Part shown: piece after piece, positions 1 to 37,337 of the stretch
Layout of the letters: each line of letters begins with the position of its first letter
Position numbering within the stretch: position 1 is the first letter of the stretch
DNA from: Agarophyton chilense
Taxonomy: Eukaryota; Rhodophyta; Florideophyceae; Gracilariales; Gracilariaceae
Length of the DNA stretch: 64,000 bases
Direction: 5' to 3'
Assembly: GCA_030374765.1 (NCBI GenBank)
Contig: JARGXX010000095.1
Location: 1,922,001 to 1,986,000 of the forward strand
Notes under the pieces: model-generated
Told to the model about the DNA's origin: nothing
Database searches by the model: none
Seen by the model: the letters and a program-made list of their open reading frames with translations, nothing else
Translations under genes and position numbers: made by a program

Positions 1-80
1 TTCTCGTCTTGATTCCATTGAAACCAGTAATCAAACATGAATGCGAACCCCGAATTAGAAGTAATTTTTGAGAGTCATTT

Positions 81-3539: not shown

Positions 3540-3638
3540 TTGGAATTGAAATAATACATTCTTCACCTCTGCTAACCCTAATTTGGCATTCGTAATAAAA
3601 TCTGCAGCTTTGAAATACTGACGTTAGTCTATTTATTC

Positions 3639-5011: not shown

Positions 5012-5029
5012 CCAGCCTCCATAGGCTGG
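5012..5029. repeat. 7-bp GC-rich hairpin near unit end
   Basis: ccagcct-ccat-aggctgg is a perfect 7-bp stem with a 4-nt loop followed by ctttatt. It is repeated at 10184-10201 and absent from truncated copy 3. It looks like a bacterial intrinsic terminator, but the eukaryotic context argues against that reading. Confidence 0.6.
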
Positions 5030-8711: not shown

Positions 8712-8810
8712 TTGGAATTGAAATAATACATTCTTCACCTCTGCTAACCCTAATTTGGCATTCGTAATAAAATCTGCAGCTTTGAAATACTGACGTTAGT
8801 CTATTTATTC

Positions 8811-9053
8811 TTATATTTCCTCACGCACAACCATTGCTCTTCCATCAACGATGCTGCCATCTAAATGCATAACGGCTGATCTTGCATACTCTTTAAATCT
8901 GAAAGTAATTTTCGCGTAACAACCAGTGTTCCTCACCCTTACGAGTTCAACATTTTCCAGATTGCCAATACGGATGAAAATAGATGTCAGCCTTCTTTTG
9001 GATATTCCATAAGGGATATTGTGGACAGTGACAGTTCCTCTCTCGGAAAACAT
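8811..9053 (-). CDS. Small single-RRM RNA-binding protein, copy 2
   Basis: Identical 80-residue RRM ORF to that at 3639-3881, in the second repeat unit. Both copies are intact, so the ORF has not decayed since the duplication, although the units may simply be young. The third unit is truncated before this position. Confidence 0.55.
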   Translation of the reverse strand: MFSERGTVTVHNIPYGISKRRLTSIFIRIGNLENVELVRVRNTGCYAKITFRFKEYARSAVMHLDGSIVDGRAMVVREEI

Positions 9054-10359: not shown

Positions 10360-13300
10360 TTCTCGTCTTGATTCCATTGAAACCAGTAATCAAACATGAA
10401 TGCGAACCCCGAATTAGAAGTAATTTTTGAGAGTCATTTAAAGGCACATTGAGTGCCTTTGCTCTCAGAGTTCTTCATGCGGGTGTATCAACTTCGGGAA
10501 CAGCTTCATTAGCCGGGTATAAATCCTTCCTCGCAGAAATAAAAGCTGTACAACGTTTCCTGTTTCTGTTGTCTACGGGCAGGAAAGGCCGAGCATCTGA
10601 ATAACTTTTGAAACTAGAAATTTACTTGGAACGTGAGACAGGACCCTCAATCCTCACACTGCACACCGAACGGGACGGTGAACGTCTTAAGGCTGCCCAC
10701 TACTTCGCGGCAGATGGCATGTAAGGAAATGAATCAACGCTCTACACTCCGGGATTAAATGAACGTCTCCAACTTGAACATGGGGCCCTTCATGGTGGTG
10801 TTAGGCCCTGTGTAAAAGAAGTTAACCTACCCATTCTGTACATGTCAGACATTTTGGAGCACGTTGTCAGCTGCAAGAATTGAATCATTCATTTATCGAT
10901 AAATGAAGTACCTCTCGAAGCATTGCTTAGATGCGACCCTGAAAACGTGAAGCTCCAACGTCCTTTTGTGTGTAAGACATATGCAATGGTGTGCAACTCA
11001 AAATCAGTACAGAAGCTCGAACCTTTCCTATTTTTTGGAATACTTCTTGGAGAACTCCGCGGTGCGCTTTATGAAGTTCAATAAAAAATCGTCCATATAA
11101 AACGAAGCAGTTTGAGATTCTACCGATAAACGTTTCCTGAGCTACCATCCCCAATTCTAACTGGTTCCTTTCAAACAACGAACAACGGATCCCGTAGATA
11201 TGATAACAACGACGAAGACCCTCTTCTTGGGGCACATAAATAGGAGAGTACTGGAGACAGCAATGAAGCTTTTTGACCACTTGAAACACAATCCTGAAAA
11301 CCTTTCAGACTGTGACTGGGAGAGTCGTTCTGATAAAAACGACCCTTCTTAATACTGTTCTGCTGTTACTTTCTTCCCATCACAAAAATCAGCATTACCG
11401 ACGTGTCTACACTAGAAACTGTACTTATGCCACATTCATATACAAATCATGCATCAAGAACGGATAGACTGTGTATCATTCATGTAATGTAGTTTCATGA
11501 GGCATGAAAAATAGTTATAAAGTTCATGCATATAGAACTATCTAGAAGTTTTTGTCTATTCTCTATAAACTCCGAAGATGGGTCTAGAACAATCTAAAAA
11601 ACTGCGTCTAATGGGTGTTTAGAGGGGGATCAGAAGTCTATATATGGAGCACTTGGTATCAAACTCTAGTGACATTTTGGACACAATATCTCAGCCCGTA
11701 CGAAAGGTAAAATATATTACAGTGCATCACTGTAATATGGCACCGCGCTCCCCGATAGCGATCGTGGCCCAATTACCTTCGTTGGACTGATAGCATGGCC
11801 GGGCTGGCCTCGGTTCGGGTTGAGATAACTTGAAAAGATGAGCCGGAAGGAAGGGTGTCTGCAACAGTGGTTGGTATGCTGATAGAATACTCTCGTGAAC
11901 TTGGTAAGGAACTTCTCTCGCGGGAACTGTGAGCATGAAACCCTATCTGCGCCGAGTCGCCCAAAGTAGTCTCTTACAACCATCCCGACTATGGTCTGCT
12001 TGCTAGGTCCAGTGAGTGGGACAAGGGTTCGAGTAACGCTTCAAAAAGTTGTTTCGTCAGGTAGGACATTTAAGCACTACTCCAGTACTGTTGAGCAAGT
12101 GGAGGAGAGAAGATTAGAGTTGATTGGTTCGTACTGATTCTCTCATCGAATAAGGACACCGAAGTGTTTACGTAGTGAAGTGGTGGAGAGATCCCGATCA
12201 GATTAGAAAGTATCAGACACCTCGTGATGTGGGAGCCGGACATAGCTTTCTGAAACCATCTTCTCCGCTGCAAGAGGACCTGCCGCTTCGGACCGAACCC
12301 AACGTAGAGGAAATAAAGCAAACGGAAATCAAGCTTTCAAGCCAGGCAGAACATATGATCATTCATGATGGTGGTTGTATTTAGACCAAACAAGGCAGGT
12401 GCGCTGGATGTGAAGAGGGATTGGTTGATTGTTGATGTACGGCTAGCAAACGATTTTGATTTAGAAAACACAGATGTATATCGGGGTTCTACAGAATTGA
12501 GGTCTCATTCGAGTCCCATCTCCGACTTAAGTCAGGGCACAGCAGATGAAAGCAATGACTATTGTGATGAGGAAGGTTTGGATGAAGAATAAGAAAAGCG
12601 CGTATGCTAATATTTCAGCCCCTTCTTCCTCGTGTTCTAATAGAAAGAAGCAAGGAACACGACACTCGCCTGTCTCTAGAAACCTCACTTATTAGCAGAA
12701 TATCTTCTGATGAGTTTTCGGTTCTTGTCGGTAAAGGGGACCAGCATCTTGAACACGTCATTTGTTGAACTTCTGCTGTAATAGATTTCCACAGTTTGTA
12801 CAGGAAATGGCTAGTTTCTCCCAATGAATGCGAAAGACTGACTAGCCTCCATCCGGGAATTCTTGACTTCGAAGCTGTGGTGAAGCACAAACGAAAACAA
12901 GCTCCTTATTTAGTTGGGAAAACCGCTTTCCTTGGAAGTGGAACCTCACAAACTGCAAAAATACAGGTAGGTGTGGAACGACGGGTCCGAACGGACTTCT
13001 ACAAAGACGTGAAAGCTGCTGTGAAAGAGTATTCATTAAACATGGAGGCAAGCAAGTTTGAAATTTTCCAGTCCTAAATATGCTTTTAGTTTAGATGACT
13101 TGTTCTGTGCTTCGAAATCGACGTACACTTTATCGCTTTGTAGAACTGCTGCAAATATTTCCTTACAATTGAACGTTAACACAACGTTCTTCTCCAGCGA
13201 GGGAAGAGCAACTTCGGTGGGTTGCCCTTTCGCTCTTCCCACGGCAGTCTTGTGGAATTGTCGGTTGTCCCTTAGGCGGGGCCCATTCTTAAAATATTGG

Positions 13301-13829
13301 GTTTCAACACACTTATTTTCCGAAACAAAATTCGTTCACCAATGCCGTGAAGTATTCCATATAATTACTCAATCCAGCTAAAAAGAAAATTTAATCTTCA
13401 TTTTTAATGCCGGTTTTTATTGAAAGAGAGGAATTAAATTAAAAGTCAGTTGGAGTGACGGTACTAGTCTTTGATACGGCCCGAAATGGTTGCGTATACG
13501 GTGTTTCTTTGTTGTTTGATATATTTGTATGGGTAATTGGTTTTCGACGAAAGTGGCATGGCTTCATTATTGCGAAAGGGGCTGACAGTAGTGAGTCTCT
13601 CTCTTTCCCTCCAGTCCAGAAAATACACAGCAACAGTAACGTTCTGCAAACGCATCTGAACAACGTCGGAGCCGGCCTTGTTTTGAGGTCGACATTCTTG
13701 CCAACGAGTAAAGGACTGGAATCCTCAACGGAGACATTCTGTATTGATATTGTTGACGTCAAGAAAATCCTTAAAAACTCATGGATTTTAATGGGTGATG
13801 GGTTTTTTTCAGTATTTGACATTGCAAAA
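10360..13829. repeat. Tandem array, copy 3, truncated
   Basis: Third direct copy, offset 5172 bp from copy 2. Homology stops at about 13829, in a short run of A after ttgacattgc, where copies 1 and 2 continue with cggtttcatt. It keeps about 3.47 kb and loses the RRM ORF and everything downstream. It carries scattered private substitutions, for example near 11217, 11927, 12089, 12134, 13444 and 13673. Confidence 0.95.
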
Positions 13830-14465: not shown

Positions 14466-15753
14466 ATGAACGAGAGCGTCTGGTGGGACGAAGCCACTGC
14501 GGAAGGAAACATTGACATTGATGACCTTCTCGACAGCAGTAGCAATGAAAGCGAGCAAGAATGGGGAGGCTCAAAGCCAGGAAAAGGTCTAAACATTGAC
14601 CGTAAAGCTCACGAAGCTTCTCAGAGACTACATCGACAATATTTCTGTGCCAATACTATATACGATGACGAAACATTCAAACGCCGACATCGCACTTCAC
14701 GCAAAGTTTTTGATCGAATTTTTTGACGCAATCACAAAACATGACCGGTTCTTTCAGCAAAGGCGGGACTGCACCGGGCAACTTGGCCTGAATCCTTATC
14801 TAAAAGTGATAGCAGCTTTTTGCATTTTGGCTTATGGAATGGCCGCCGATTCTGTGGACGAACTTTTGGCAGTGAGCGATACGACAGCCTTACTTTGTCT
14901 TGACCATTTCGTCAAATCATTAATTGCTTGCTTCTCAAGCGAATACTTGCGAGCCCCGACAGAAGCGGACATGAAGCAAATACTTCTTTTCTCAGACCGA
15001 CCTGGACTTCCGAGTATGCTTGGGAGCATTGATTGCAGTAAATAGCACTGGAAAAATTGCCCGACTGTCTGGCATGGGCAATACAAAGGCAAGGAAGGGG
15101 TTCCTGTCGTAACTCTTGAGGTAATCTGCGACATATCGCTGTGGATATGGCATGCCTTTTATGGCTTTCTTGGCTCTGGGAACGATATAAATGTCGTCGA
15201 GGCATCCACTCTCATTGGAAAAATGAGTAATGTGGCGTTCCCACCACCCCTAGAGTACATCATTAACGGAGTGAGAAGAAACAAGCCGTATTGGCTCGCT
15301 GACGGAATATATCTGAAGTGGCCTGTTTTCGTACAAACCGTAGCCTTCCCGGCAAATAAGAAAGAAGAATGCTTAGCGAAGCATCAAGAAGCGTGCCAAA
15401 AAGGTGTTGAAAGAGCGTTCGGTGTTCTACAGAGCAAGTGGAATATCGTAGAGAGGCCGGCTGGCTTCTGGGCTAAAGAAACGATGAAAGCTGTTATGCA
15501 ATGCTGTATAATTTTACACAACATGATGGTGGAGGACCGCGGTGGGCTCGATGTTGAAGTCGACGCCGTCCCTGGAGATGGAGATATTGTTATCGGCAAT
15601 GAAGCAGCGCCTATGTGGAGTGCCCTAAACCGAGTACCTGGGCATGCACCACCACCGATTGGGAGTTTCGCTGCTATGTGTGAGACGCAAGGTTTTCTAA
15701 AAGATAGCAAAGAGTACTTCGAAACTCGGAGATTGCTTATGGAACACCTGTAG
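14466..15753 (+). pseudogene. PIF/Harbinger transposase (DDE_Tnp_4 / Plant_tran), broken
   Basis: Starts at the ATG of MNESVWWDE and reads through a helix-turn-helix-like region (DDETFKRRHRTSRKVFDRIF). A T6 run at 14719-14724 shifts the frame by one base; the continuation FDAITKHDRFF is in the next frame. The catalytic region follows with GSIDC (first Asp), then an in-frame TAG at 15043-15045 just after the residues SIDCSK. It resumes in the same frame with HWKNCPTVWHGQYKGKEG, GSGNDINV (second Asp) and ACQKGVERAFGVLQ (Glu), all typical of the family. The catalytic triad residues are therefore still visible, but the protein cannot be made as one chain without frameshift and readthrough. It would have cut and pasted the element with help from ORF1. 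Confidence 0.88.
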
Positions 15754-21646: not shown

Positions 21647-23201
21647 GTTCGCTGGTCAACGCACGAAACAACCGGGACACGTAGGTAGCACGAAGAAAAG
21701 AACGCCCTGAAGTAGAGGGGATGCGGACTGGCGGTTGAAGAACTGTGCGACGTTCAGCGCGTGCGAGGGCAGAACGACGAAAGAGAGTGAAGTGGGAAAA
21801 AAAAAGGAGAGGTGGCTGAGCATCGACGAGAGGTTTAATAGTAAATCCACGTCAGAAATGTCACCAACTAGCAACCTTGATGTAGTGCTGCATGCGCACT
21901 GCTGCCCATAAGTAAACTTTCCAAGGGCACAAACGGAATGTTTTTTGATAGGTGATGGATAGACGCATACTACAGCGAAGACAAGGCGCCTTTTTGGGAA
22001 TACAGAGGAATCCAAAAATGCGGCGTTTCTACAGTCAAATGCAGTTTCGTGTGTAGAAAATGGTTTCGTTCACGGCGCCACTTCTGGCTGGTTGTTGCGC
22101 ATCCACAATTACAAATTAAATCATATTTACACACATCATTTAAAAAAACCCTCTGTTTTGATTGTTGTACTTGCCCACATGCAGAAAGGCGCCCAAGGGC
22201 GAGTGTGGTCGCGGTCATCATGGTCGCCTCTGGGTTTGGGCCGGTGCATTACTCAGAGCGAGCACTGAAGGTCGGCGGCGTTCGGCGCGTTCTCGGAAAA
22301 TGTAAACCGCAAGTAGCTTCGAAAGGCAACCATGACTGTCGAGAAACTGTTCAGAAATGTCCGGGTTGGCCGAAAGAAGTCTACTGTGTGATGTGGTTGC
22401 ACCCACAGCTCGAGCACAGAGGCTTAATACACCAGCTAACGTTTATTGAATACAAACCTCTTGTAGCATCATCATGATGGCAATGATTATCATACCCCTT
22501 CTTTCACGAGACTTCCCTGACAGAGCTAATCAACATCTCATGCTAGTAGCTAGCGACACTAGCTAGCTCTAGAGTTTAGTGCCCCAAACAGCAAATACGA
22601 CACATACTGTACTCAACGTATGTATGAAAGTCTGCAAGCTCTGACCTGTTTGCAACTTGTCCTATCAACCGTTCAGTATCTCTCCATTTGTTGCCCAGCA
22701 GCTACATCTTGTTCAGCTGGAGCACGGTTTAACCTAAACCGCAAATAAATCGCGTCTTGAATAGTTCATGATGAACAGCAACCCTGCAGCATGATGCTCT
22801 GAACGTCTTTTTGAGACAGAATTTTCTCTCTTAGCGTCATTGAGAGCAGAAATATACCCTTCGTAATTTTCACTTCTTCGAAACCGGATCGTGAACTACA
22901 CAACAGCGCAGGCATGTGGAAGTATTTGACATAGAACTCGACAGAAACATTTTACTACGTCTTGACCGACTGGTATCTGATAGTGCGCTGGCTTTCTGAA
23001 CAAGAGAGCATTTCTTTCCTCAAAACCTTCTCCGGTGCGTCATACCGTAGATGAATGAGGTATTCACTGCAGGGAAATACCTGCTGTCAATCTTTCTCCG
23101 CAGCACTGACCTGATGTCCGCATCAGTCAGCAGGACAGAAACACAACTGGATTATTGATGGTTGCAAAAAGGACAATTAAAAAAACTGAATCGCACAAGC
23201 G
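21647..23201. other. Intergenic, includes left breakpoint of 6-kb duplication
   Basis: Promoter side of the small membrane protein gene (minus), then unit A of the duplication from about 21957. A 142-codon plus-strand frame (22049-22477, alternative start) has no recognisable domain. A cluster of ctagctag-type self-complementary motifs lies near 22540-22570. No supported gene. Confidence 0.5.
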
Positions 23202-23289
23202 CACCCCGGGCGGGGCTCGAACCCGCGGCCGTTAGGTTAAAAGCCTAACGCTCTGAATCGCTGTGGAGAACCAATTGAGCTACCGGGGC
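23202..23289 (-). tRNA. trnK-UUU: tRNA-Lys(UUU) with an intron in the D-loop, copy A
   Basis: Read on the minus strand the 88-nt gene has acceptor GCCCCGG/CCGGGGT (one G-U), D stem GCTC/GAGC, and anticodon arm TTAGG-CTTTTAA-CCTAA with anticodon UUU at 23241-23239. The variable loop has 5 nt, the T arm is GCGGG-TTCGAGC-CCCGC, and the discriminator is G73, typical of eukaryotic tRNA-Lys. CCA is not encoded. The D-loop is 23 nt (23276-23254) instead of about 8. Removing 14-15 nt (about 23269-23255, TCTCCACAGCGATTC) leaves AATTGGTA, a normal D-loop. There is no intron at the canonical 37/38 position. The A box (TAGCTCAATTGG) lies just 5' of the insertion and the B box (GGTTCGAGCC) is intact, so Pol III promotion should survive. 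Confidence 0.9.
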
Positions 23290-24658
23290 TTGCACGACTG
23301 ACATTATCGAACTCAAAATCTATATTTAAACCAAAACATCACGCTTACCCGCGTAAGCGATGTGTAAAATAACATTCTTCAGATGATAGTTTACCATAGC
23401 ATTGTAGTTATCTTCATTACTCTTGAAATGGAAGGTGAATCAACTAATGAAACTGTTTGCAGCTGTCCCACAGAAAAGCAGTGAATTTGTGCAAGATTTG
23501 ATACATAAACCATCAAGTTCTTGGCCTTTACAATGAGAGAAATCTTTCTTTAAAAAGCTTTATTTTAGCACAGGAATAAAAAGCTATTATTCACAATGAA
23601 GAAGAAGCAAGGTGAATTACATCGGAGGATTCCTGTGCTTTTAAGAAAACACAGTGGCTTTTGAAGACATTATTATTCATCATCAGTTGGTTCATTCATC
23701 CTTCGAGGCTGTAACCCAGTGGGAAATCATGCCGTCAGTCGAAGAGCTTCCGCTGAAGATCTTCTGGACTCTCGGCGTGAGCGCCGCTGTCGTTGATACC
23801 AAGCCAAGTGTACTTGAGATACGTGGCAATGTGGCAAGACCAAAAAAAGTCAACATATTCTTTGTCGTTCCTCATTGTAAAGATGCAAGAAAAAGCTGTG
23901 TTTATTGCGTAGGGTAGCGCTCTATCTGTTGTTGTCGGAAGATAACGACAGCCCTGGCAAGGCCGTCAGTGTCGTAGACAGCACGCATGCCTCAGCGTCA
24001 GTGGGAACGGCACACAGGCGCCGAAACGGCCTCACAGGAGGCGTTCAGGGCAGAACGAGTGCACAGCGGCAATGAATAGCTTCTGCTTCGAGTGCAATAC
24101 ATTCCTCGACAAAAAAAGACAGCCGAAAGGGCGCGAGCCCGCTTCCGCTAATCACCTTTTATCACCCTTTCTCCTTACCGAACCACACTCATGTATACTC
24201 ACCCGATACGACTTTCGGCAGATTTTTCTCACCGATAACCTGCATCACTTCTTCTTTAGCAGGTGCAAGAGCGTGGGATGGTGTGGGCCCTTCTTGCAAA
24301 CCGTTTGGCTTCCTAAATCGCTGCAACACACAATGACGAGGTATTTATTGTAAGTATCTTATCAATGTCCTTCAGAAGATCAACAAATTTTTGCTATACC
24401 GTGGCCTAAGTACTTTAACAAACGTCCTGATGGTGTGTTGGTCTTTATCGACAGAGAACATTTCTTTGAAAAGAGACGTTCTGCAGTATGTTTTAAACTA
24501 CAGGGCACCCATTAAAACACCGAAGAGTGGCCCCCGTTCTGTAGCAACTACATCAGTATGCCCATGAACAGTGAGAGATGTTCACAGGTTTCCAGACGCA
24601 AAACTCAATCTCGACCTAACTCAAGTGATAAGGAATTCAAAAATGTCCCTTCACATCT
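23290..24658. other. Intergenic between tRNA-Lys and UTP21, unit A
   Basis: No supported gene. An 87-codon plus-strand frame (23654-23917, GTG start) is kept open in both units with a few substitutions, but I see no family. The 3' end of UTP21 lies to the right. Confidence 0.5.
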
Positions 24659-27600
24659 TCAGAGCTGTCCGGAAAAGTGAGCCGATAGAGAAAGCACAGA
24701 GTCAAACAGACACCGCAATCTATCCCAAGCCTCTCTTTGCTCATCAAGTAACTTTTGTAGCAGCCCGCTCCCTTCTTCGTCTTTTGCAAGCTCGCCTCCA
24801 TGAACACGTAAGAATACACCGAGATGTGCTTGCGTGAGTTCGAATCCTTGAGAGCTACCAAGCCGCTCGACGAAAAACAGCGCTGCGTTTCGCAGAGTTC
24901 GTCGCCCACCCATTGTACGAATTTCCATGTCAACACCTGATGCATCTAAAGAGTTCATAAAACGGGTGGCATCATGAAACCGCGTTTCCAGCAACAAATT
25001 GCCTAGGGTGCTGTTCATCCAGCCTTCTTCGTTTCCATTCATGAGCACTTTTCTAATCTTGCCTTGTTGCGAGTCACTTTTACCGTCTCCCGTGAAATTT
25101 GCTTTGTTTTCGGCGTTTAGATCAAACTCTAGCTGAAGTGACTTCTTGGTTGGAATAAAGAAAGGCGCAGACTCACCCTTCTTCGGGGGTTCTATCGGCT
25201 TGTTTCTTTCTTTGATTGCTTGCAGGTTGCTTAACACAGTCCACTTCGAGGTTGGCTCTGTGCTCAGAGTAATGATTTCTTCGGATAAGGGAACACCTTT
25301 CCCTTCATCTGTGGGTATGTCTCTCATACCTTCCTCATAGTTTTGCATTTCGGAATCTGTATCACTTTCCTCGTCTGCTTCCGTGTCTTGATCCTCTACA
25401 TTCAGAGGAGCACGCATTGCTTGTTCTTCACTTTCCTTTCTGATTCTTCTTCTTACTGGTTCAAATCTTGACATATCTACCCACAGTTTAATACCAACGT
25501 TATTCACGTGTGTTGTGGCAATATATTCTCCGTTAGGAGCCACCGCTACGCTGGTCGGGGCATCATCACAAAAAAGAGTGTCGAAAAGACGTCCACTCGG
25601 CAAGTCCCACGTTTTCACAGTGCTGTCCATGGACGCTGATAGTATTCTCCTGCCGTTCACGTTGAAACACAAATCTACGAGAGGGCCATGATGTCCAGTA
25701 AAACAACGAGCAAGCTTGTGCGTCACAGCGTCGTATATGTATATGATGAAGTCTGTGCACGCAACAGCTAATAAATCAGAAGACGCACTCCACGAGATTA
25801 AAGATATATCAGACCTGGTTGAGATACATCCTTCGCTTCTTTTTCTAGTGTACATGGCCCAAAACTTGATTGTTCGGTCTTCCCCTCCGGCGGATACTAG
25901 CGTATCACCACAGGCATCAACAGCTACACCAACAACGCGACAAGAATGGGCTCGCCCCCAATGCTGACTTTCCTTTTCCGTCTTACTCTTTGCATCCGCT
26001 GTGGCGTCAAAGAGCGCAGTGTCCTGAAAAACACCTTGATGATATCCACTCTGGAGGTTATATGTGTGAACACGTCCATCTTCGCCGCCCACAAAAGCAA
26101 AATTTCCGCAAGGTGACAGAACAGTGCATGTCGATTTCCTGTTCTCCCACTCTTCTCGTGCTGACCTACTGGTTTGATTCCCCTTCGCTTCCTTCTCTTT
26201 CCTCTTGAAAGCAAGTTCATATTTTTTTGGCTTACGAGGCTTCAACACATGATTATGGGACGCTCCAGTTTGAAGACGCCATGTGTATGCACTTTGAAGT
26301 CCTTCATGTATGGTTACAATATTGGCAAACTCATGATCCCTCTCTCTGATGTTTTCTGTTGCAAATGTCATGATTCTGGGTAGTCGAGAAACAAAATTAT
26401 TGACATGGTCACCAACTTCAATCTTGTTCTCTTTTCTTCTTCTTTTCTTCGTTTTAACCCCTTGCTTGTCGATTTTCTTTTGAGAGAAGGATCGATTTTT
26501 CCCTTGGTGAACGGCGGAAACTAATCGCAGCTCACGATCCAGGCCCGCCGATACCATCATGAAACCGCCGTACCCGCAGAACCTAACCATGGTCGGCGGC
26601 AGATAGTGACCTTCTCGTGACCGCAGTATTCTTGCCTGGCCGTTCTCTTCATCAAATAGATGTATCTTTACGGAGTTGTCCGTTTTCCCAGCCGTGATCA
26701 ATAATGGTTCACCGGGAAGGAAATGAGCAAGGGCGCATCCGCCATCGGGGTGAACCAAGCGCGCTTCAGATCGTATGCGTTTCTGGTTTAAATCCCAAAT
26801 GAACATGTTTCCATCTGCATCACCTGTCATCATGCTTTCGTCAACGTCAGTCCGGAAGGAAATAACATTTACGGCATTAGCTGAAATGAAAGCTATTTCA
26901 CCTTGTTCGGGATTTATGGGATCCGACGTATGCCGAAATGTGACAACTGTCTCATCCATTCGGAAGTTGTGGAGTACAATTCTTCCATCAGCTGTTCCAA
27001 CTGCAACTACGTCGACGACGGGAGAAGGTTCCATAACAGTTATCGCAGATTCAAACCCAGGAAACATATGAACGACGTTCATTGCTCTAAAATTGACAAG
27101 CAAGCATCGGCCATCTTTCGCGCCAAGGAGGATCTTGTTGATATATGTTTGCGGGTGACAAACAGATGTAACCGCAAAGTCAGGGGGTATGTGAAATTCG
27201 GAAAGCATGATACCGTCAATAGAAGGCCTATCTTTTGTATTTTCCGGAAGAGCCCATACTACAACTTTACCCTCTTCTGATATTGAAATCAAAACATTCC
27301 CTACAATAACAAAGGCAACGATTGGGGCCTGATGAAAGCGCCACACACAAAAAGGTCGAAGATGATGAAATACTCCAATATTGCTTCCTAAAGCCACAAA
27401 AGTTAGTTCCTGGTAAGCTGCTATCCGGTCGATGCCAAACTCTTCGCTACGCTTTTCACTACCCTCATACCACGAACTTGGTATTGGTTTTGAAATTCCT
27501 TTGATATGCAGATTGGTATCGTATAGATGTAGTGTTCGGGCACCCTCTACGGGAGTGGTAATGAAGGAAGATAGGCCCAGACGGTGAGCAACTGGGACAC

Positions 27601-27670
27601 AGCCGCGCGAAGCTCCATCGCAAACCAAACCAAGAGTTTGAAAAGGAGAGTATACTTCACTGGAACGCAT
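24659..27670 (-). CDS. UTP21: U3 snoRNP / SSU processome protein UTP21 (WDR36), copy A
   Basis: 1003 residues from an ATG, single exon. WD40 repeats run through about residues 1-640 as two propellers: GHHGPLVDLCFNVNGRRILSASMDSTVKTWD is a textbook repeat, and GEDRTIKFWAMYTRKR another. An acidic linker follows (about 720-760, DQDTEADEESDTDSE). The C-terminal Utp21 domain (about 780-1003) includes FFIPTKKSLQLEFDL and LGNLLLETRF. UTP21 sits in the UTP-B complex with UTP12, acts in the nucleolus and is needed for 18S pre-rRNA processing. The basic insert between propellers (QGVKTKKRRRKENK) resembles a nucleolar signal. Its length is slightly above the yeast/human proteins. It differs from copy B by two residues that I could see (Val/Ala near residue 25 and Val/Ile near 100). 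Confidence 0.95.
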   Translation of the reverse strand: MRSSEVYSPFQTLGLVCDGASRGCVPVAHRLGLSSFITTPVEGARTLHLYDTNLHIKGISKPIPSSWYEGSEKRSEEFGIDRIAAYQELTFVALGSNIGVFHHLRPFCVWRFHQAPIVAFVIVGNVLISISEEGKVVVWALPENTKDRPSIDGIMLSEFHIPPDFAVTSVCHPQTYINKILLGAKDGRCLLVNFRAMNVVHMFPGFESAITVMEPSPVVDVVAVGTADGRIVLHNFRMDETVVTFRHTSDPINPEQGEIAFISANAVNVISFRTDVDESMMTGDADGNMFIWDLNQKRIRSEARLVHPDGGCALAHFLPGEPLLITAGKTDNSVKIHLFDEENGQARILRSREGHYLPPTMVRFCGYGGFMMVSAGLDRELRLVSAVHQGKNRSFSQKKIDKQGVKTKKRRRKENKIEVGDHVNNFVSRLPRIMTFATENIRERDHEFANIVTIHEGLQSAYTWRLQTGASHNHVLKPRKPKKYELAFKRKEKEAKGNQTSRSAREEWENRKSTCTVLSPCGNFAFVGGEDGRVHTYNLQSGYHQGVFQDTALFDATADAKSKTEKESQHWGRAHSCRVVGVAVDACGDTLVSAGGEDRTIKFWAMYTRKRSEGCISTRSDISLISWSASSDLLAVACTDFIIYIYDAVTHKLARCFTGHHGPLVDLCFNVNGRRILSASMDSTVKTWDLPSGRLFDTLFCDDAPTSVAVAPNGEYIATTHVNNVGIKLWVDMSRFEPVRRRIRKESEEQAMRAPLNVEDQDTEADEESDTDSEMQNYEEGMRDIPTDEGKGVPLSEEIITLSTEPTSKWTVLSNLQAIKERNKPIEPPKKGESAPFFIPTKKSLQLEFDLNAENKANFTGDGKSDSQQGKIRKVLMNGNEEGWMNSTLGNLLLETRFHDATRFMNSLDASGVDMEIRTMGGRRTLRNAALFFVERLGSSQGFELTQAHLGVFLRVHGGELAKDEEGSGLLQKLLDEQREAWDRLRCLFDSVLSLSAHFSGQL

Positions 27671-27823
27671 TTTCAGAGCCTGTCGCGATGGTTCTCTGTG
27701 CTTAAAGTACTTATTGAAAACGTAACGTGGCTGAGAGAGATTAATTGTTCTGTTCCGGTTGGGATACTCTGGTCAGCTAAAGCAAGAGTTCCGAAATATG
27801 TAGACCAGTTGGACGGTATTTAG

Positions 27824-28441
27824 ATGTGGAACTCTGCTGCAAATATGAGCTTGCACGGAGTAATGAGAGGTTTGTCCAGGGTGGACAAATCGCTCTCCTT
27901 GCAGGACGTCAACGAACCATGGATAGACGCATACTACAGCGAAGACAAGGCGCCTTTTTGGGAATACAGAGGAATCCAAAAATGCGGCGTTTCTACAGTC
28001 AAATGCAGTTTCGTGTGTAGAAAATGGTTTCGTTCACGGCGCCACTTCTGGCTGGTTGTTGCGCATCCACAATTACAAATTAAATCATATTTACACACAT
28101 CATTTAAAAAAACCCTCTGTTTTGATTGTTGTACTTGCCCACATGCAGAAAGGCGCCCAAGGGCGAGTGTGGTCGCGGTCATCATGGTCGCCTCTGGGTT
28201 TGGGCCGGTGCATTACTCAGAGCGAGCACTGAAGGTCGGCGGCGTTCGGCGCGTTCTCGGAAAATGTAAACCGCAAGTAGCTTCGAAAGGCAACCATGAC
28301 TGTCGAGAAACTGTTCAGAAATGTCCGGGTTGGCCGAAAGAAGTCTACTGTGTGATGTGGTTGCACCCACAGCTCGAGCACAGAGGCTTAATACACCAGC
28401 TAACGTTTATTGAATACAAACCTCTTGTAGCATCATCATGA
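27824..28441 (+). other. Chimeric ORF created across the duplication junction
   Basis: A 205-codon plus-strand frame opens at ATG 27824 in the sequence upstream of UTP21 copy A, crosses the junction at 27919-27921 and continues into unit B sequence. In the unduplicated right flank the same start runs into a TGA at 33938-33940 after NEP. No recognisable domain. It shows how the duplication fuses previously separate sequence; a product is doubtful. Confidence 0.3.
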
Positions 28442-29205
28442 TGGCAATGATTATCATACCCCTTCTTTCACGAGACTTCCCTGACAGAGCTAATCAACAT
28501 CTCATGCTAGTAGCTAGCGACACTAGCTAGCTCTAGAGTTTAGTGCCCCAAACAGCAAATACGACACATACTGTACTCAACGTATGTATGAAAGTCTGCA
28601 AGCTCTGACCTGTTTGCAACTTGTCCTATCAACCGTTCAGTATCTCTCCATTTGTTGCCCAGCAGCTACATCTTGTTCAGCTGGAGCACGGTTTAACCTA
28701 AACCGCAAATAAATCGCGTCTTGAATAGTTCATGATGAACAGCAACCCTGCAGCATGATGCTCTGAACGTCTTTTTGAGACAGAATTTTCTCTCTTAGCG
28801 TCATTGAGAGCAGAAATATACCCTTCGTAATTTTCACTTCTTCGAAACCGGATCGTGAACTACACAACAGCGCAGGCATGTGGAAGTATTTGACATAGAA
28901 CTCGACAGAAACATTTTACTACGTCTTGACCGACTGGTATCTGATAGTGCGCTGGCTTTCTGAACAAGAGAGCATTTCTTTCCTCAAAACCTTCTCCGGT
29001 GCGTCATACCGTAGATGAATGAGGTATTCACTGCAGGGAAATACCTGCTGTCTATCTTTCTCCGCAGCACTGACCTGATGTCCGCATCAGTCAGCAGGAC
29101 AGAAACACAACTGGATTTTTGATGGTTGCAAAAAGGACAAATAAAAAAACTGGATTTTTGATGGTTGCAAAAAGGACCAATAAAAAAAACTGTATCGCAC
29201 AAGCG
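28442..29205. other. Intergenic left part of unit B
   Basis: Noncoding sequence matching 22478-23201. No supported gene. It contains the ~40-bp duplication listed separately. Confidence 0.5.
29111..29189. repeat. Two ~40-bp tandem repeats present only in unit B
   Basis: Units 29111-29149 and 29150-29189 both start ctggatttttgatggttgc and end in a run of A. Unit A has only one copy, so this arose after the 6-kb duplication or was lost from A. It lies just 3' of the tRNA-Lys gene, where Pol III would terminate. On the tRNA strand the A-runs read as T-runs. Confidence 0.85.
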
Positions 29206-29293
29206 CACCCCGGGCGGGGCTCGAACCCGCGGCCATTAGGTTAAAAGCCTAACGCTCTGAATCGCTGTGGAGAACCAACTGAGCTACCGGGGC
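29206..29293 (-). tRNA. trnK-UUU: tRNA-Lys(UUU) with D-loop intron, copy B
   Basis: Same 88-nt gene as at 23202-23289, with two substitutions. One D-loop base changes (AATTGG to AGTTGG) and one variable-loop base changes (C to T before GGCC). Both are compatible with folding. The 14-15 nt D-loop insertion is identical in both copies, as are the stems and the UUU anticodon. This is consistent with both copies being functional and the insertion being a removed intron. Confidence 0.88.
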
Positions 29294-30677
29294 TTGCACG
29301 ACTGACATTATCGAACTCAAAATCTATATTTAAACCAAAACATCACGCTTACCCGCGTAAGCGATGTGTAAAATGACATTCTTCAGATGATAGTTTACCA
29401 TAGCATTGTAGTTATCTTCATTACTCTTGAAATGGAAGGTAAATCAACTAATGAAACTGTTTGCAGCTGTCCCACAGAAAAGCAGTGAATTTGTGCAAGA
29501 TTTGATACATAAACCATCAAGTTCTTGGCCTTTACAATGAGAGAAATCTTTCTTTAAAAAGCTTTATTTTAGCACAGGAATAAAAAGCTACTATTCACAA
29601 TGAAGAAGAAGCAAGGTGAATTACATCGGAGGATTCCTGTGCTTTTAAGAAAACACAGTGGCTTTTGAAGACATTATTATTCATCATCAGTTGGTTCATT
29701 CATCCTTTGAGGCTGTAACCCAGTGGGAAATCATGCCGTCAGTCGAAGAGCTTCCGCTGAAGATCTTCGGGACTCTCGGCGTGAGCGTCGCTGCCGTTGA
29801 TACCAAGCCAAGTGTACTTGAGATACGTGGCAATGTGGCAAGACCAAAAATAGTCAACATATTCTTTGTCGTTCCTCATTGTAAAGATGCAAGAAAAAGC
29901 TGTGTTTATTGCGTAGGGTAGCGCTCTATCTGTTGTTGTCGGAAGATAACGACAGCCCTGGCAAGGCCGTCAGTGTCGTAGACAGCACGCATGCCTCAGC
30001 GCCAGTGGGAACGGCACACAGGCGCCGAAACGGCCTCACAGGAGGCGTTCAGGGCAGAACGAGAGCACAGCGGCAATGAATAGCTTCTGAATTCTGTCTG
30101 TCAGCTTCGAGTGCAATCCATTCCTCGACAAAAAAAGACAGCCGAAAGGGCGCGAGCCCGCTTCCGCTAATCACCTTTTATCACCCTTTCTCCTTACCGA
30201 ACCACACTCATGTATACTCACCCGATACGACTTTCGGCAGATTTTTCTCACCGATAACCTGCATCACTTCTTCTTTAGCAGGTGCAAGAGCGTGGGATGG
30301 TGTGGGCCCTTCTTGCAAACCGTTTGGCTTCCTAAATCGCTGCAACACACAATGACGAGGTATTTATTGTAAGTATCTCATCAATGTCCTTCAGAAGATC
30401 AACAAATTTTTGCTATACCGTGGCCTAAGTACTTTAACAAACGTCCTGATGGTGTGTTGGTCTTTATCGACAGAGAACATTTCTTTGAAAAGAGACGTTC
30501 TGCAGTATGTTTTAAACTACAGGGCACCCATTAAAACACCGAAGAGTGGCCCCCGTTCTGTAGCAACTACATCAGTATGCCCATGAACAGTGAGAGATGT
30601 TCACAGGTTTCCAGACGCAAAACTCAATCTCGACCTAACTCAAGTGATAAGGAATTCAAAAATGTCCCTTCACATCT
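29294..30677. other. Intergenic between tRNA-Lys and UTP21, unit B
   Basis: Matches 23290-24658 with scattered substitutions and the 15-bp insertion near 30090. The 87-codon frame at 29658-29921 is still open with substitutions at several codons. No supported gene. Confidence 0.5.
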
Positions 30678-33600
30678 TCAGAGCTGTCCGGAAAAGTGAG
30701 CCGATAGAGAAAGCACAGAGTCAAACAGACACCGCAATCTATCCCAAGCCTCTCTTTGCTCATCAAGTAACTTTTGTAGCAGCCCGCTCCCTTCTTCGTC
30801 TTTTGCAAGCTCGCCTCCATGAACACGTAAGAATACACCGAGATGTGCTTGCGTGAGTTCGAATCCTTGAGAGCTACCAAGCCGCTCGACGAAAAACAGC
30901 GCTGCGTTTCGCAGAGTTCGTCGCCCACCCATTGTACGAATTTCCATGTCAACACCTGATGCATCTAAAGAGTTCATAAAACGGGTGGCATCATGAAACC
31001 GCGTTTCCAGCAACAAATTGCCTAGGGTGCTGTTCATCCAGCCTTCTTCGTTTCCATTCATGAGCACTTTTCTAATCTTGCCTTGTTGCGAGTCACTTTT
31101 ACCGTCTCCCGTGAAATTTGCTTTGTTTTCGGCGTTTAGATCAAACTCTAGCTGAAGTGACTTCTTGGTTGGAATAAAGAAAGGCGCAGACTCACCCTTC
31201 TTCGGGGGTTCTATCGGCTTGTTTCTTTCTTTGATTGCTTGCAGGTTGCTTAACACAGTCCACTTCGAGGTTGGCTCTGTGCTCAGAGTAATGATTTCTT
31301 CGGATAAGGGAACACCTTTCCCTTCATCTGTGGGTATGTCTCTCATACCTTCCTCATAGTTTTGCATTTCGGAATCTGTATCACTTTCCTCGTCTGCTTC
31401 CGTGTCTTGATCCTCTACATTCAGAGGAGCACGCATTGCTTGTTCTTCACTTTCCTTTCTGATTCTTCTTCTTACTGGTTCAAATCTTGACATATCTACC
31501 CACAGTTTAATACCAACGTTATTCACGTGTGTTGTGGCAATATATTCTCCGTTAGGAGCCACCGCTACGCTGGTCGGGGCATCATCACAAAAAAGAGTGT
31601 CGAAAAGACGTCCACTCGGCAAGTCCCACGTTTTCACAGTGCTGTCCATGGACGCTGATAGTATTCTCCTGCCGTTCACGTTGAAACACAAATCTACGAG
31701 AGGGCCATGATGTCCAGTAAAACAACGAGCAAGCTTGTGCGTCACAGCGTCGTATATGTATATGATGAAGTCTGTGCACGCAACAGCTAATAAATCAGAA
31801 GACGCACTCCACGAGATTAAAGATATATCAGACCTGGTTGAGATACATCCTTCGCTTCTTTTTCTAGTGTACATGGCCCAAAACTTGATTGTTCGGTCTT
31901 CCCCTCCGGCGGATACTAGCGTATCACCACAGGCATCAACAGCTACACCAACAACGCGACAAGAATGGGCTCGCCCCCAATGCTGACTTTCCTTTTCCGT
32001 CTTACTCTTTGCATCCGCTGTGGCGTCAAAGAGCGCAGTGTCCTGAAAAACACCTTGATGATATCCACTCTGGAGGTTATATGTGTGAACACGTCCATCT
32101 TCGCCGCCCACAAAAGCAAAATTTCCGCAAGGTGACAGAACAGTGCATGTCGATTTCCTGTTCTCCCACTCTTCTCGTGCTGACCTACTGGTTTGATTCC
32201 CCTTCGCTTCCTTCTCTTTCCTCTTGAAAGCAAGTTCATATTTTTTTGGCTTACGAGGCTTCAACACATGATTATGGGACGCTCCAGTTTGAAGACGCCA
32301 TGTGTATGCACTTTGAAGTCCTTCATGTATGGTTACAATATTGGCAAACTCATGATCCCTCTCTCTGATGTTTTCTGTTGCAAATGTCATGATTCTGGGT
32401 AGTCGAGAAACAAAATTATTGACATGGTCACCAACTTCAATCTTGTTCTCTTTTCTTCTTCTTTTCTTCGTTTTAACCCCTTGCTTGTCGATTTTCTTTT
32501 GAGAGAAGGATCGATTTTTCCCTTGGTGAACGGCGGAAACTAATCGCAGCTCACGATCCAGGCCCGCCGATACCATCATGAAACCGCCGTACCCGCAGAA
32601 CCTAACCATGGTCGGCGGCAGATAGTGACCTTCTCGTGACCGCAGTATTCTTGCCTGGCCGTTCTCTTCATCAAATAGATGTATCTTTACGGAGTTGTCC
32701 GTTTTCCCAGCCGTGATCAATAATGGTTCACCGGGAAGGAAATGAGCAAGGGCGCATCCGCCATCGGGGTGAACCAAGCGCGCTTCAGATCGTATGCGTT
32801 TCTGGTTTAAATCCCAAATGAACATGTTTCCATCTGCATCACCTGTCATCATGCTTTCGTCAACGTCAGTCCGGAAGGAAATAACATTTACGGCATTAGC
32901 TGAAATGAAAGCTATTTCACCTTGTTCGGGATTTATGGGATCCGACGTATGCCGAAATGTGACAACTGTCTCATCCATTCGGAAGTTGTGGAGTACAATT
33001 CTTCCATCAGCTGTTCCAACTGCAACTACGTCGACGACGGGAGAAGGTTCCATAACAGTTATCGCAGATTCAAACCCAGGAAACATATGAACGACGTTCA
33101 TTGCTCTAAAATTGACAAGCAAGCATCGGCCATCTTTCGCGCCAAGGAGGATCTTGTTGATATATGTTTGCGGGTGACAAACAGATGTAACCGCAAAGTC
33201 AGGGGGTATGTGAAATTCGGAAAGCATGATACCGTCAATAGAAGGCCTATCTTTTGTATTTTCCGGAAGAGCCCATACTACAACTTTGCCCTCCTCTGAT
33301 ATTGAAATCAAAACATTTCCTACAATAACAAAGGCAACGATTGGGGCCTGATGAAAGCGCCACACACAAAAAGGTCGAAGATGATGAAATATTCCAATAT
33401 TGCTTCCTAAAGCCACAAAAGTTAGTTCCTGGTAAGCTGCTATCCGGTCGATGCCAAACTCTTCGCTACGCTTTTCACTTCCCTCATACCACGAACTTGG
33501 TATTGGTTTTGAAATTCCTTTGATATGCAGATTGGTATCGTATAGATGTAGTGTTCGGGCACCCTCTACGGGAGTGGTAATGAAGGAAGATAGGCCCAGA

Positions 33601-33689
33601 CGGTGAGCAACTGGGGCACAGCCGCGCGAAGCTCCATCGCAAACCAAACCAAGAGTTTGAAAAGGAGAGTATACTTCACTGGAACGCAT
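30678..33689 (-). CDS. UTP21: U3 snoRNP / SSU processome protein UTP21 (WDR36), copy B
   Basis: 1003 residues, intact, ATG start, same domain layout as copy A: two WD40 propellers, an acidic linker and a C-terminal Utp21 domain. The about 690 bp upstream of the ATG that belong to the ancestral locus remain attached to this copy. Copy A has only about 250 bp of shared upstream sequence before the junction, so promoter content may differ. The differences from copy A cluster in the first ~130 codons. Confidence 0.95.
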   Translation of the reverse strand: MRSSEVYSPFQTLGLVCDGASRGCAPVAHRLGLSSFITTPVEGARTLHLYDTNLHIKGISKPIPSSWYEGSEKRSEEFGIDRIAAYQELTFVALGSNIGIFHHLRPFCVWRFHQAPIVAFVIVGNVLISISEEGKVVVWALPENTKDRPSIDGIMLSEFHIPPDFAVTSVCHPQTYINKILLGAKDGRCLLVNFRAMNVVHMFPGFESAITVMEPSPVVDVVAVGTADGRIVLHNFRMDETVVTFRHTSDPINPEQGEIAFISANAVNVISFRTDVDESMMTGDADGNMFIWDLNQKRIRSEARLVHPDGGCALAHFLPGEPLLITAGKTDNSVKIHLFDEENGQARILRSREGHYLPPTMVRFCGYGGFMMVSAGLDRELRLVSAVHQGKNRSFSQKKIDKQGVKTKKRRRKENKIEVGDHVNNFVSRLPRIMTFATENIRERDHEFANIVTIHEGLQSAYTWRLQTGASHNHVLKPRKPKKYELAFKRKEKEAKGNQTSRSAREEWENRKSTCTVLSPCGNFAFVGGEDGRVHTYNLQSGYHQGVFQDTALFDATADAKSKTEKESQHWGRAHSCRVVGVAVDACGDTLVSAGGEDRTIKFWAMYTRKRSEGCISTRSDISLISWSASSDLLAVACTDFIIYIYDAVTHKLARCFTGHHGPLVDLCFNVNGRRILSASMDSTVKTWDLPSGRLFDTLFCDDAPTSVAVAPNGEYIATTHVNNVGIKLWVDMSRFEPVRRRIRKESEEQAMRAPLNVEDQDTEADEESDTDSEMQNYEEGMRDIPTDEGKGVPLSEEIITLSTEPTSKWTVLSNLQAIKERNKPIEPPKKGESAPFFIPTKKSLQLEFDLNAENKANFTGDGKSDSQQGKIRKVLMNGNEEGWMNSTLGNLLLETRFHDATRFMNSLDASGVDMEIRTMGGRRTLRNAALFFVERLGSSQGFELTQAHLGVFLRVHGGELAKDEEGSGLLQKLLDEQREAWDRLRCLFDSVLSLSAHFSGQL

Positions 33690-34409
33690 TTTCAGAGCCT
33701 GTCGCGATGGTTCTCTGTGCTTGAAGTACTTATTGAAAACGTAACGTGGCTGAGAGAGATTAATTGTTCTGTTCCGGTTGGGATACTCTGGTCAGCTAAA
33801 GCAAGAGTTCCGAAATATGTAGACCAGTTGGACGGTATTTAGATGTGGAACTCTGCTGCAAATATGAGCTTGCACGGAGTAATGAGAGGTTTGTCCAGGG
33901 TGGACAAATCGCTCTCCTTGCAGGACGTCAACGAACCATGATCCGCTGCCACGGACCGCGACGGTGATACTGAGGCTGACTGTAAGGTCATTGTAACTTG
34001 CACAGCTGCCTTAGAAAAACAAGAAAGTGTACCACATACGTCCGCGACATTCACAGGATTGTGTAGTGTACACGTAGTCAGGATTATATGACTAACAATT
34101 ATCTACCCTTCATAAGAGAAGTTCAAAAGCTGGCTTGTTTCCTAACGGCATATCATATTGCCCTCGATGAGGCCGTGCGTATCCTGCCAAGTGCATGCTT
34201 TTGATTGGGTGGCTGGAAGGATCTACTCTATAGCTCGGCTCTTCTGGGGTGCTATAATACGCCCAACGTTTGTATCACCGCCGTCGTCCGTTTCCGTGCT
34301 TGTGAAATCAAGCTTTTGCTTTCACGACCCATCGCGGTAAAGGGCTACATTCCTTCCTGGTTCTGGTTACGAAAGGTCCGTTTTCCAGTTTTGAATAACA
34401 AAGAAGAAA
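33690..34409. promoter_or_regulatory. Divergent promoter region UTP21(B) / nucleoplasmin-like gene
   Basis: 720 bp between two divergent starts. The first ~250 bp are shared with unit A and the rest is unique. Only short ORFs (60-105 codons) with no recognisable product. No clear TATA box is visible. Confidence 0.45.
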
Positions 34410-35854: not shown

Positions 35855-37337
35855 TTAATTTTCGAAGAATTCCGGCGTCGCGTAAATAGAGCTGTCTCCG
35901 TAGCTGAGAAACCTGTACTTGTGTTCGAGAGCGTGCTGATAGAGAGAGACAAGCTCATCTGGCTCTCCGCCATGAAAGGCGGAAACAAGCATCAAAAGCG
36001 TCGATCGTGGTTGGTGAAAATTTGTGATCAAAGCGTCAATCCTTCAGTAGCAATTCGGCGTCAAAGGGTGTGAAAACGGTCAGTGATACATTCACTCCTC
36101 ATCGTCACGCCACGCGACCAAAATGCACAGTAGATTAATCTTACATCTTGCGTGGATATCCAGGAACAATCATTAGCTTCGTTCGGCCATGAACGTATCC
36201 TTTCGATCCCCCACACCAATCGAGCACCGCTCCTAATGCTTCCTCAGGATCAGGGAGACGTGTTATGCCAATTTTGTCCACCACCTCGTACGGCTCCCAC
36301 TGCCCAACAGCCAAATGAGAGTTGTTCTGTTCTGGTTGATGGATCAGCCGCACTCCAAACCAGTACAGGCTTTCCACAGTTCGCACGCATGTTGTGCCCT
36401 TCATTGACATGAGAAGAATATGGTCAGTCGTGTAAGAGTAAACAGTCGGGTACAGGATTCATGAACGCACCACCGCAACGATGGGAGCTCTATTGCGTAA
36501 CTGGGCCCAAATTTCCGCGATTACCCGTCCAGAGACAGACAGAGATTCTTCGTGCATGTCATGGGTTCCAGCGATTGGGGTTTCGATTTGTTGAAAAGTA
36601 CCGATCCCGATGTGCAACACAATTTCTCTGGTACGTATCCCCTTTTTTTGGATATCGTCGAGCAGATTGTCGGTGATATGCAGCCCGGCTGTCGGAGCGG
36701 CCACAGAGCCATGCTCCGATGCATACACAGTTTGATAAGTTTCAGTGTCTTGCGGAATCGATGGGCGCTTCATATAAGGCGGCAAGGGTGGACTGCCTTC
36801 CTGATTCAGGAATTCGACAGCTCGAAGCGAATCAGCTCGCGATGGACACTGAAAATCTACAACAGCATGATTCTGATGGCGCTCAATTACATGAGCTTCA
36901 ACCTGGCTACATGATGAACTATTCATAAGGTGCAAAACATGTCCCACTCGAATGTTCTTTCCGCCGATCAAGGCGCGCCAGCGTTGGCCGTGAAGTGGGG
37001 AATGCATTGCTTGCGCCGTTGTGTCTGTAACATGATTGAGTAGTAGTATCTCAGCCTTTCCCCCAGATGGCTTTCGCATTCGTAGTCTCGCTGGAATCAC
37101 TCGACTCGAGTTCAGAAGCAATAGAGAGTTTTTTGGCAGAAGATTCGGAAGCTCATTGAACTTGGCGTGTGATGGTTGTCGACCGCGCGCAACTACAAGA
37201 AGTTTTGATGATGAGCGATCCGGTAGAGGGTGAGTGGCGATTTGAGACTGTGGAAGGTCGTAGGTGAAAGCCTTGGTGATCAAGGACTGCGCGCGCTGCA
37301 GGGCCGATGACACTGTTCTGAAATGCGGTGCAGACAT
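35855..37337 (-). CDS. queA: QueA: S-adenosylmethionine:tRNA ribosyltransferase-isomerase, three exons
   Basis: Exons 37337-36471, 36398-36145 and 36041-35855 give 435 residues. Intron 1 (36470-36399, 72 nt) has donor GTGCGT, branch GACTGAC and acceptor AAG. Intron 2 (36144-36042, 103 nt) has GTAAGA, CACTGAC and AAG. Joins restore [13 protein letters not shown] and [16 protein letters not shown], both core QueA motifs. Others are [39 protein letters not shown] and [10 protein letters not shown]. QueA moves the ribosyl of SAM onto preQ1 at position 34 of tRNA, making epoxyqueuosine, a bacterial step. An N-terminal ~25-residue extension and a ~45-residue insert after the TTCVRT motif exceed the bacterial ~350 aa. 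Spliceosomal introns show it is a settled nuclear gene; bacterial origin is inferred. The 3' end converges with the nucleoplasmin-like gene (158 bp apart). Confidence 0.92.

Follow-up and report, generated by a model that had tools for sequence, protein, structure and literature searches.

The stretch analysed here (the window; C95:1922001-1986000, 64,000 nt) comes from an assembly of 79.76 Mb in 135 contigs, labelled C plus a number, and contains two genes for tRNA-Lys(UUU) whose D-loops carry an identical 15-nt insert, a putative intron at position 20/21. An earlier reading of the letters alone (the sequence-only reading) had described the gene as present twice with an intron inside the D-loop. 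Both copies are indeed there, on the minus strand and within a tandem duplication, as full-length matches to the Rfam tRNA model RF00005 (model positions 1-71 of 71, gathering score 29). The features are as follows.

23202..23289, minus strand: tRNA-Lys(UUU) copy 1, 88 nt including the D-loop insert (RF00005 61.9 bits, full length; spliced form tRNA-Lys(ttt) by ARAGORN)
23255..23269, minus strand: 15-nt D-loop insert of copy 1, putative intron at 20/21 (sequence; comparison with other tRNAs of the genome)
23272..23275, minus strand: copy 1 exon nt 15-18 (AUUG), possible strand of helix H (4 pairs, one G.U; two insert nt remain in the 3' bulge)
23257..23260, minus strand: copy 1 insert nt 10-13 (CGAU), partner strand of helix H (pairing analysis)
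23179..23185, minus strand: T7 run starting 17 nt 3' of copy 1, likely RNA polymerase III terminator
29206..29293, minus strand: tRNA-Lys(UUU) copy 2, 88 nt, insert as in copy 1 (RF00005 63.0 bits, full length; spliced form tRNA-Lys(ttt) by ARAGORN)
29259..29273, minus strand: 15-nt D-loop insert of copy 2, putative intron, identical to the copy 1 insert (sequence)
29276..29279, minus strand: copy 2 exon nt 15-18 (GUUG), strand of helix H (4 pairs, two G.U; competing GUUG/CAGC helix)
29261..29264, minus strand: copy 2 insert nt 10-13 (CGAU), partner strand of helix H (pairing analysis)
29182..29189, minus strand: T8 run starting 17 nt 3' of copy 2, likely RNA polymerase III terminator
21955..27921, no strand: unit 1 of a tandem duplication of about 6 kb with the tRNA and a Utp21-like gene (blastn of the window against itself, repeats, Pfam)
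27919..33940, no strand: unit 2 of the same duplication (blastn of the window against itself, repeats)

The window genes read GCCCCGG-TA-GCTC-ARTTGGT-[TCTCCACAGCGATTC]-A-GAGC-G-TTAGG-CTTTTAA-CCTAA-YGGCC-GCGGG-TTCGAGC-CCCGC-CCGGGGT-G, with the insert in brackets. The sequence agrees with the earlier description: the D-loop between GCTC and GAGC spans 23 nt in both copies, the anticodon UUU sits in the 7-nt loop CTTTTAA, there is no 37/38 intron, and G73 is present. An alignment showed the bracketed 15 nt to be absent from ten other nuclear tRNAs of the genome. The length to be excised, previously given as 14-15 nt, is 15 nt. ARAGORN at its default setting reports no tRNA in the window and, with introns allowed, calls neither unspliced gene; once the 15 nt are excised it calls tRNA-Lys(ttt) for both copies, the join being GGT-AGAGC. 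Judged by eye against the consensus sequences, the A box and B box look intact, so that transcription may be retained, as had been proposed. The halves of the genes stand in normal order, i.e. the genes are not circularly permuted. Nor does the insert qualify as a group I intron, being only 15 nt long where the catalytic core is described as about 100 nt (PMC4033280), and Rfam finds the tRNA alone in the window.

Copies 1 and 2 show two differences over the 73 positions of the body and none over the 15 of the insert. The sequence-only reading had taken the unchanged insert of copy 2 as an argument against a random insertion. This argument is weak: the two units are a recent tandem duplication and about 99% identical, and an unchanged insert is thus expected by chance. 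Two near-identical copies 6 kb apart could also be members of a tRNA-derived repeat resembling a short interspersed nuclear element. Against this, a single tandem duplication, with a protein gene inside it, holds both copies, and a DNA search of the genome returned only three such tRNAs, the third with unlike flanks; the repeat was rejected on these grounds and its likelihood is put close to nil.

The third nuclear tRNA-Lys(UUU) gene, at C1:1932219-1932306, has an insert of 15 nt at the same position as the window copies and is misread by ARAGORN, when unspliced, as tRNA-Stop(tta). Its 30-nt flanks are unlike those of the window genes. A comparison with copy 2 shows 9 differences over the 15 insert sites against 4 over the 73 body sites (Fisher p = 4.7e-6); the four body differences form two compensated acceptor pairs. 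Judging by the sequences, this divergence looks like that of a selected tRNA with a nearly free intron, unlike that of decaying copies. As a separate observation, G1 stands opposite T72 in all six nuclear tRNA-Lys genes that were read (UUU and CUU, window genes at 23202 and 29206 included), and the first acceptor pair of nuclear tRNA-Lys would therefore be a G.U wobble.

An intact nuclear tRNA-Lys(UUU) gene, which according to the sequence-only reading would, together with the lack of a spliced product, make pseudogenes of the window genes, was not found. A genome-wide pattern of CTTTTAA plus T-arm gave seven matches (reversed-pattern control: two), of which three are the nuclear genes with the insert, one is plastid, and three are mitochondrial on two contigs; a DNA search with the whole gene gave three matches and likewise no intact nuclear gene. 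The codon AAA makes up 133 of the 268 lysine codons in ten open reading frames (ORFs) of the window. Insert-free Lys(CUU) genes occur on three contigs, hence lysine tRNAs without an insert are possible in this genome. These results bear on the idea that the window genes are pseudogenes disabled by a D-loop insertion, with tRNA-Lys(UUU) supplied by another source. It has precedent in a review: where the D- or T-arm of a eukaryotic tRNA gene holds a short insertion, the gene is mostly one among many synonymous genes and is regarded as a pseudogene (PMC4090602). The idea also draws on the intronless paralogs that Ala(UGC) and Cys(GCA) possess (see below). The failure of both searches to return an intact gene, the compensated acceptor stem of the third gene, the retained stems and T-runs, and the pairing rule shared by inserts that also occur in five other isoacceptors make this explanation distinctly unlikely.

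The survey for ectopic forms that had been suggested earlier revealed D-loop inserts in five further isoacceptors. In total, ten genes for six isoacceptors carry them: three each for Lys(UUU) and Tyr(GUA), and one each for Ile(UAU), Leu(UAA), Ala(UGC) and Cys(GCA). Outside the Lys genes the inserts measure 13 nt (Tyr), 23 nt (Ile), 16 nt (Leu), 12 nt (Ala) and 11 nt (Cys), and each of the three Tyr genes combines its D-loop insert with a 37/38 intron. A run of at least four T starts no more than 38 nt downstream in all ten genes. A D-arm pattern of GCTC/GAGC with extra nucleotides gave 13 matches (reversed control: one), comprising the three Lys genes, the three Tyr genes, the Ile gene and six sites that are not tRNAs. 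These six lack an Rfam match; R1, a model built in this analysis, was run on five of them and gave two weak matches, both within one locus (L078) and off the pattern. By comparison, R1 scores the Tyr and Ile genes at 45.3-67.5 bits. A wider D-arm pattern (16 matches, eight of them tRNAs and eight not; control 11) added Cys(GCA) with 11 nt. The GCC-type pattern (32 matches, control 29) added Leu(UAA) with 16 nt (L100); six of these matches were read, namely L100 as a tRNA with insert, L102 as a normal tRNA-Leu, and four that are not tRNAs. The GCGC-type pattern (72 matches, control 51) added Ala(UGC) with 12 nt, the only tRNA with insert among the 16 matches read, which also included two weak 14-bit model scores without an Rfam match. 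As the GCC and GCGC patterns barely exceed their controls, the Leu and Ala calls rest on the sequences and not on the counts; matches for reading were chosen by eye, and further genes with inserts may have been missed.

After excision of the D-loop insert, ARAGORN names nine of nine sequences as expected (Lys three times, Tyr twice with the second intron kept, Ile, Leu, Ala and Cys). Of six unspliced sequences tested, four are not called, and Leu and Cys are misread. Twenty other nuclear tRNA genes that were read are free of a D-loop insert: 18 come from an Rfam scan that scored 63 of 3586 candidates, 46 of its 64 matches being organellar, and the remaining two are Leu(AAG) and Ala(UGC). One of the twenty, Ser(UGA), has a 37/38 intron.

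Pattern searches found no Tyr or Ile gene without a D-loop insert. For Tyr, eight matches comprise the three genes with D-loop inserts and five sites that are not tRNAs. The five matches (GACTGTAAATCAAAATGTC), candidates for an intact tRNA-Tyr, were rejected by eye and by model as copies of a repeat. The family in question (L095-L099, on C69, C70 twice, C75 and C86) contains a 19-nt stretch like the anticodon arm of an intronless tRNA-Tyr, and so mimics an intact tRNA in a pattern search. The near-match pattern for Ile(UAU) gave six matches (control four), one of them exact. Three of the five near matches were read and rejected as tRNAs, L103 and L104 with Rfam and L105 by eye; the negative for Ile covers these three, and one of the remaining two lies on the plastid contig.

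Two isoacceptors offer direct comparisons of genes with and without an insert. The Cys(GCA) gene on C88 has the 11-nt insert and that on C2 is insert-free, with identical 72-nt bodies. For Ala(UGC), the gene with the 12-nt insert at C117:1289945 and the insert-free one at C117:1213874 have bodies that differ by one compensated acceptor pair. Flanks are mostly unlike within both pairs. With such intron-plus and intron-minus paralogs, the inserts must have been precisely gained or lost at this site. Regarding the C88 gene itself (C88:2727702-2727784; L089, L128), its insert starts with AGA and an exon AGA follows directly after it; the insert can pair with the D-stem strand as a GCTCT-CC-AGAGC hairpin, which may hint at the origin of the insert.

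In nuclear tRNA 37/38 introns the splice sites are described as a relaxed bulge-helix-bulge motif, hBH, with an outer helix that is followed by a 3-nt bulge and then by a helix of 4 bp (PMC3978253). Because free folding of the precursors was uninformative (shuffle z-scores of -1.25 to -1.95 for the Lys precursors), the motif was tested on the pairing register. For the transfer to the D-arm, the D-stem serves as h, two intron nucleotides plus A21 as the 3' bulge, and helix H pairs the four exon nucleotides ending at G18 with intron nt n-5 to n-2. The ten genes provide eight distinct inserts, identical ones being counted once. In the predicted register 27 of 32 pairs form, with a full 4-bp helix in five of the eight inserts. 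Shuffled inserts reach a mean of 15.1 pairs, and 27 or more at P = 2.5e-5; when each isoacceptor contributes a single locus, 19 of 24 pairs form (P = 8e-4). Six other registers allow 7-16 of 32 pairs. The best fits are found in the Lys gene on C1 and in the Tyr genes (GUUG/CAAC).

Candidate enzymes for such a reaction are encoded in the genome. Two genes hold the catalytic domain PF01974 (Pfam); the best PDB chain is named Sen2 for the one on C123 (5e-16) and Sen34 for the one on C25 (2.5e-20). A single RtcB homolog was found at C95:2922103-2923320 (E = 7.1e-152). For the introns of Cyanidioschyzon merolae (C. merolae) that lie off 37/38, a review proposes that a Sen2-Sen34 dimer does the cutting, on the grounds that Sen54 would depend on the D-arm (PMC3978253); on our analysis, this model would fit the inserts of the present alga. 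A route other than the tRNA-splicing endonuclease (SEN) and RtcB, i.e. another nuclease or a dedicated D-arm enzyme, might be invoked since the yeast endonuclease is described as cutting strictly at 37/38 (PMC4033280) and yeast Sen54 probably contacts the D-arm (PMC3978253), where an insert would disturb. We consider it improbable, as the hBH register statistic favours an enzyme of the SEN type and as D-arm introns exist in C. merolae, with cmSen2-cmSen34 as the model that the review puts forward for them (PMC3978253).

Taken together, both window genes are very probably working genes for tRNA-Lys(UUU), with a 15-nt D-loop intron at 20/21 that is removed by hBH-guided Sen2/Sen34 excision and RtcB joining. 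The D-loop intron proposed by the sequence-only reading thus gains support, mainly from evidence outside the window: the third gene, the other isoacceptors and the hBH statistic. Transcription, cleavage sites, splicing and the responsible enzyme are what we infer for the insert genes. RNA polymerase III would transcribe the whole Lys gene, for which an A box, a B box and a T-run are present. In the D-arm of the precursor, the D-stem (h), a 3-nt bulge of two intron nucleotides and A21, and a 4-bp helix H between exon nt 15-18 and the intron would then form the relaxed hBH motif. The tRNA-splicing endonuclease, represented by the Sen2 and Sen34 homologs, would cleave on both sides of the insert, and RtcB would ligate the tRNA halves. 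A similar design recurs in at least ten tRNA genes for six isoacceptors of this genome.

Several points weigh against this interpretation. Splicing of the D-loop inserts is predicted here from gene sequences. Rfam aligns the unspliced genes to the whole cloverleaf model, which would also suit an insert retained in the mature tRNA, i.e. a functional tRNA-Lys with a 23-nt D-loop. That alternative is very unlikely, however, as the isoacceptors differ in insert sequence and in insert length (11 to 23 nt) with the hBH pairing mostly kept, as the Ala and Cys paralogs do without an insert, and as the genome has both splicing enzymes and canonical tRNA introns. With respect to hBH-guided excision, the bulge-helix-bulge fold that the sequence-only reading had proposed to look for is borne out over the insert set, whereas the window copies fit only with G.U pairs: helix H of CGAU includes one of these in copy 1 and two in copy 2, where a competing helix register also exists. 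Ile forms one of four pairs in the strict register, with three pairs one step away, and Leu and Cys form three of four. The P values are somewhat generous, because the analyst placed the insert ends so that A21 remains exonic and fixed the exon strand of H with the first loci already in view. In free folding, the copy 1 precursor adopts a cloverleaf, that of copy 2 lacks the anticodon arm, and that of the C1 gene is not a cloverleaf. As to the gene calls, Rfam at its gathering threshold misses the three Tyr genes and the Ile gene when unspliced, so that these calls rest on R1 and on the spliced forms. Finally, a 37/38 intron or a T-arm of unusual form would hide a gene from the Lys(UUU) pattern. 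The DNA search with the Lys gene failed to return the Lys(CUU) genes, hence its reach is limited. For Ala(UGC) and Cys(GCA), intronless genes exist, so that, judged by need, the genes with inserts could in these two cases be pseudogenes.

The 227,691-nt contig C39 is the plastid genome, with psaA, rbcL, secY, dnaK, and ilvB-like and argB-like genes (names other than psaA and rbcL come from reading the translations). Its psaA matches PDB entries 7y5e (1626 bits) and 7y7a (1613) best, then 9kz9 (1609) and 8wm6 (1607), with 5zgb at 1536, and its rbcL (C39:77207-78670) matches 8bdb (1054 bits) best, then 1bwv (967). We take 7y5e to be from Porphyridium purpureum, 8wm6 from a cryptophyte, 5zgb from C. 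merolae, 8bdb from Griffithsia and 1bwv from Galdieria. With these species assignments, the matches indicate a red-line plastid nearer to mesophilic than to hot-spring red algae. Its length of about 185.7 kb per turn and its gene content favour a primary red alga over a secondary one such as a cryptophyte. All this assumes that the plastid and nuclear contigs share one source organism. The sequence-only reading had named cyanidiophycean red algae as the chief known bearers of such introns; the genome here, red-algal by its plastid, appears to be non-cyanidiophyte according to the plastid psaA and rbcL matches. Both organelle contigs circle more than once: C39 repeats at an offset of 185,684 (dnaK, psaA), giving a true size of about 185.7 kb, and the 53,277-nt mitochondrial contig C133 at an offset of 27,243, giving about 27.2 kb.

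Among the closest known systems is C. merolae, in which 34 of 43 nuclear tRNA genes are reported as disrupted, with ectopic introns that include the D-arm (PMC3978253). Shared traits, as far as the sources describe them, are a red algal host, short D-arm introns, tRNAs with several introns, a relaxed bulge-helix-bulge motif, and Sen2 and Sen34 homologs (Soma 2007, 2013, via PMC3978253 and PMC9602550). The tRNA-Ile(UAU) of C. merolae has a D-arm intron, as does Ile(UAU) here; the permuted tRNA-Leu(TAA) of that alga has its join at 20/21, close to the site of the Leu(UAA) insert in the present genome. Unlike in C. merolae, all non-canonical inserts found here lie at about 20/21 (the search was confined to D-loop inserts), no fewer than 19 nuclear tRNA genes are without any intron, the genome has roughly five times the size (79.8 Mb versus 16.5 Mb), and the plastid is nearer to those of mesophilic red algae.

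The nucleomorph of Guillardia theta is red by origin. It is the reduced relic of an enslaved alga, whereas the present case concerns a full nuclear genome in which five of eight inserts have the full hBH helix. Non-canonical introns of 3-24 nt are described for the nucleomorph, several tRNAs having two or three (Kawach 2005, via PMC4090602 and PMC3978253), and their excision was demonstrated by reverse transcription PCR. The non-canonical introns of crenarchaeal tRNAs, at D-arm and other sites, have hBH or hBHBh' motifs that an EndA-type endonuclease cuts (PMC3978253), though these enzymes differ in subunit make-up from the eukaryotic system found here. Canonical eukaryotic 37/38 introns, present in Ser(UGA) and the three Tyr genes of this genome, use the same relaxed hBH motif (PMC3978253); the inserts differ from them in lying in the D-loop and not in the anticodon loop. 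A 2014 table gives C. merolae as the sole eukaryote with several introns per tRNA, omitting the G. theta nucleomorph (PMC4033280). Exceptions to cutting at 37/38 named in the reviews include C. merolae, algal nucleomorphs and the 27/28 intron of a permuted prasinophyte gene.

Elsewhere in the window, positions 1-13829 hold a tandem array with a unit of 5.17-5.19 kb (start-to-start 5187 and 5172) that is at least 99% identical and has no closed ORF of 150 aa or more and no Rfam match at the gathering threshold. At 15223-15753 (plus strand) lies a transposase fragment with PF04827, 'Plant transposon protein', a Harbinger-like family. A 292-aa ORF at 36459-37337 (minus strand) matches Queuosine_synth (QueA, PF02547, 2e-64); as the match spans only profile positions 2-237 of 322, the ORF may be a single exon or a truncated gene. 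QueA occurs mostly in bacteria.

Among the open-access matches listed, no title or opening of an abstract describes nuclear D-loop introns in any other red alga; GtRNAdb and the subscription literature lay outside this search, and earlier notice is possible. The D-loop inserts described here widen a rare known kind, with one position, mostly one motif and six isoacceptors in an apparently non-cyanidiophyte red alga. The eukaryotic tRNA-splicing endonuclease has been described as a ruler that cuts beside the anticodon, and the D-loop introns proposed here would be an exception to this rule. Ordinary tRNA finders can miss or misread tRNAs that carry them. This second and much larger genome, with D-loop inserts at one position in six isoacceptors, three of them without an intact alternative in the searches made, provides a comparative and experimental system. 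Questions within its reach are which subunits enable cutting in the D-arm, which of the two introns of a tRNA-Tyr leaves first, and how such introns come and go. More broadly, and with slightly less than even confidence, we propose that D-arm splicing characterises red algae in general and is no peculiarity of hot-spring species: the splicing endonuclease of a mesophilic red alga would read the D-arm hBH motif, the findable Lys-UUU, Tyr-GUA and Ile-UAU copies would depend on it, and position 20/21 would be a hot spot that still gains and loses introns, as the Ala and Cys pairs suggest.
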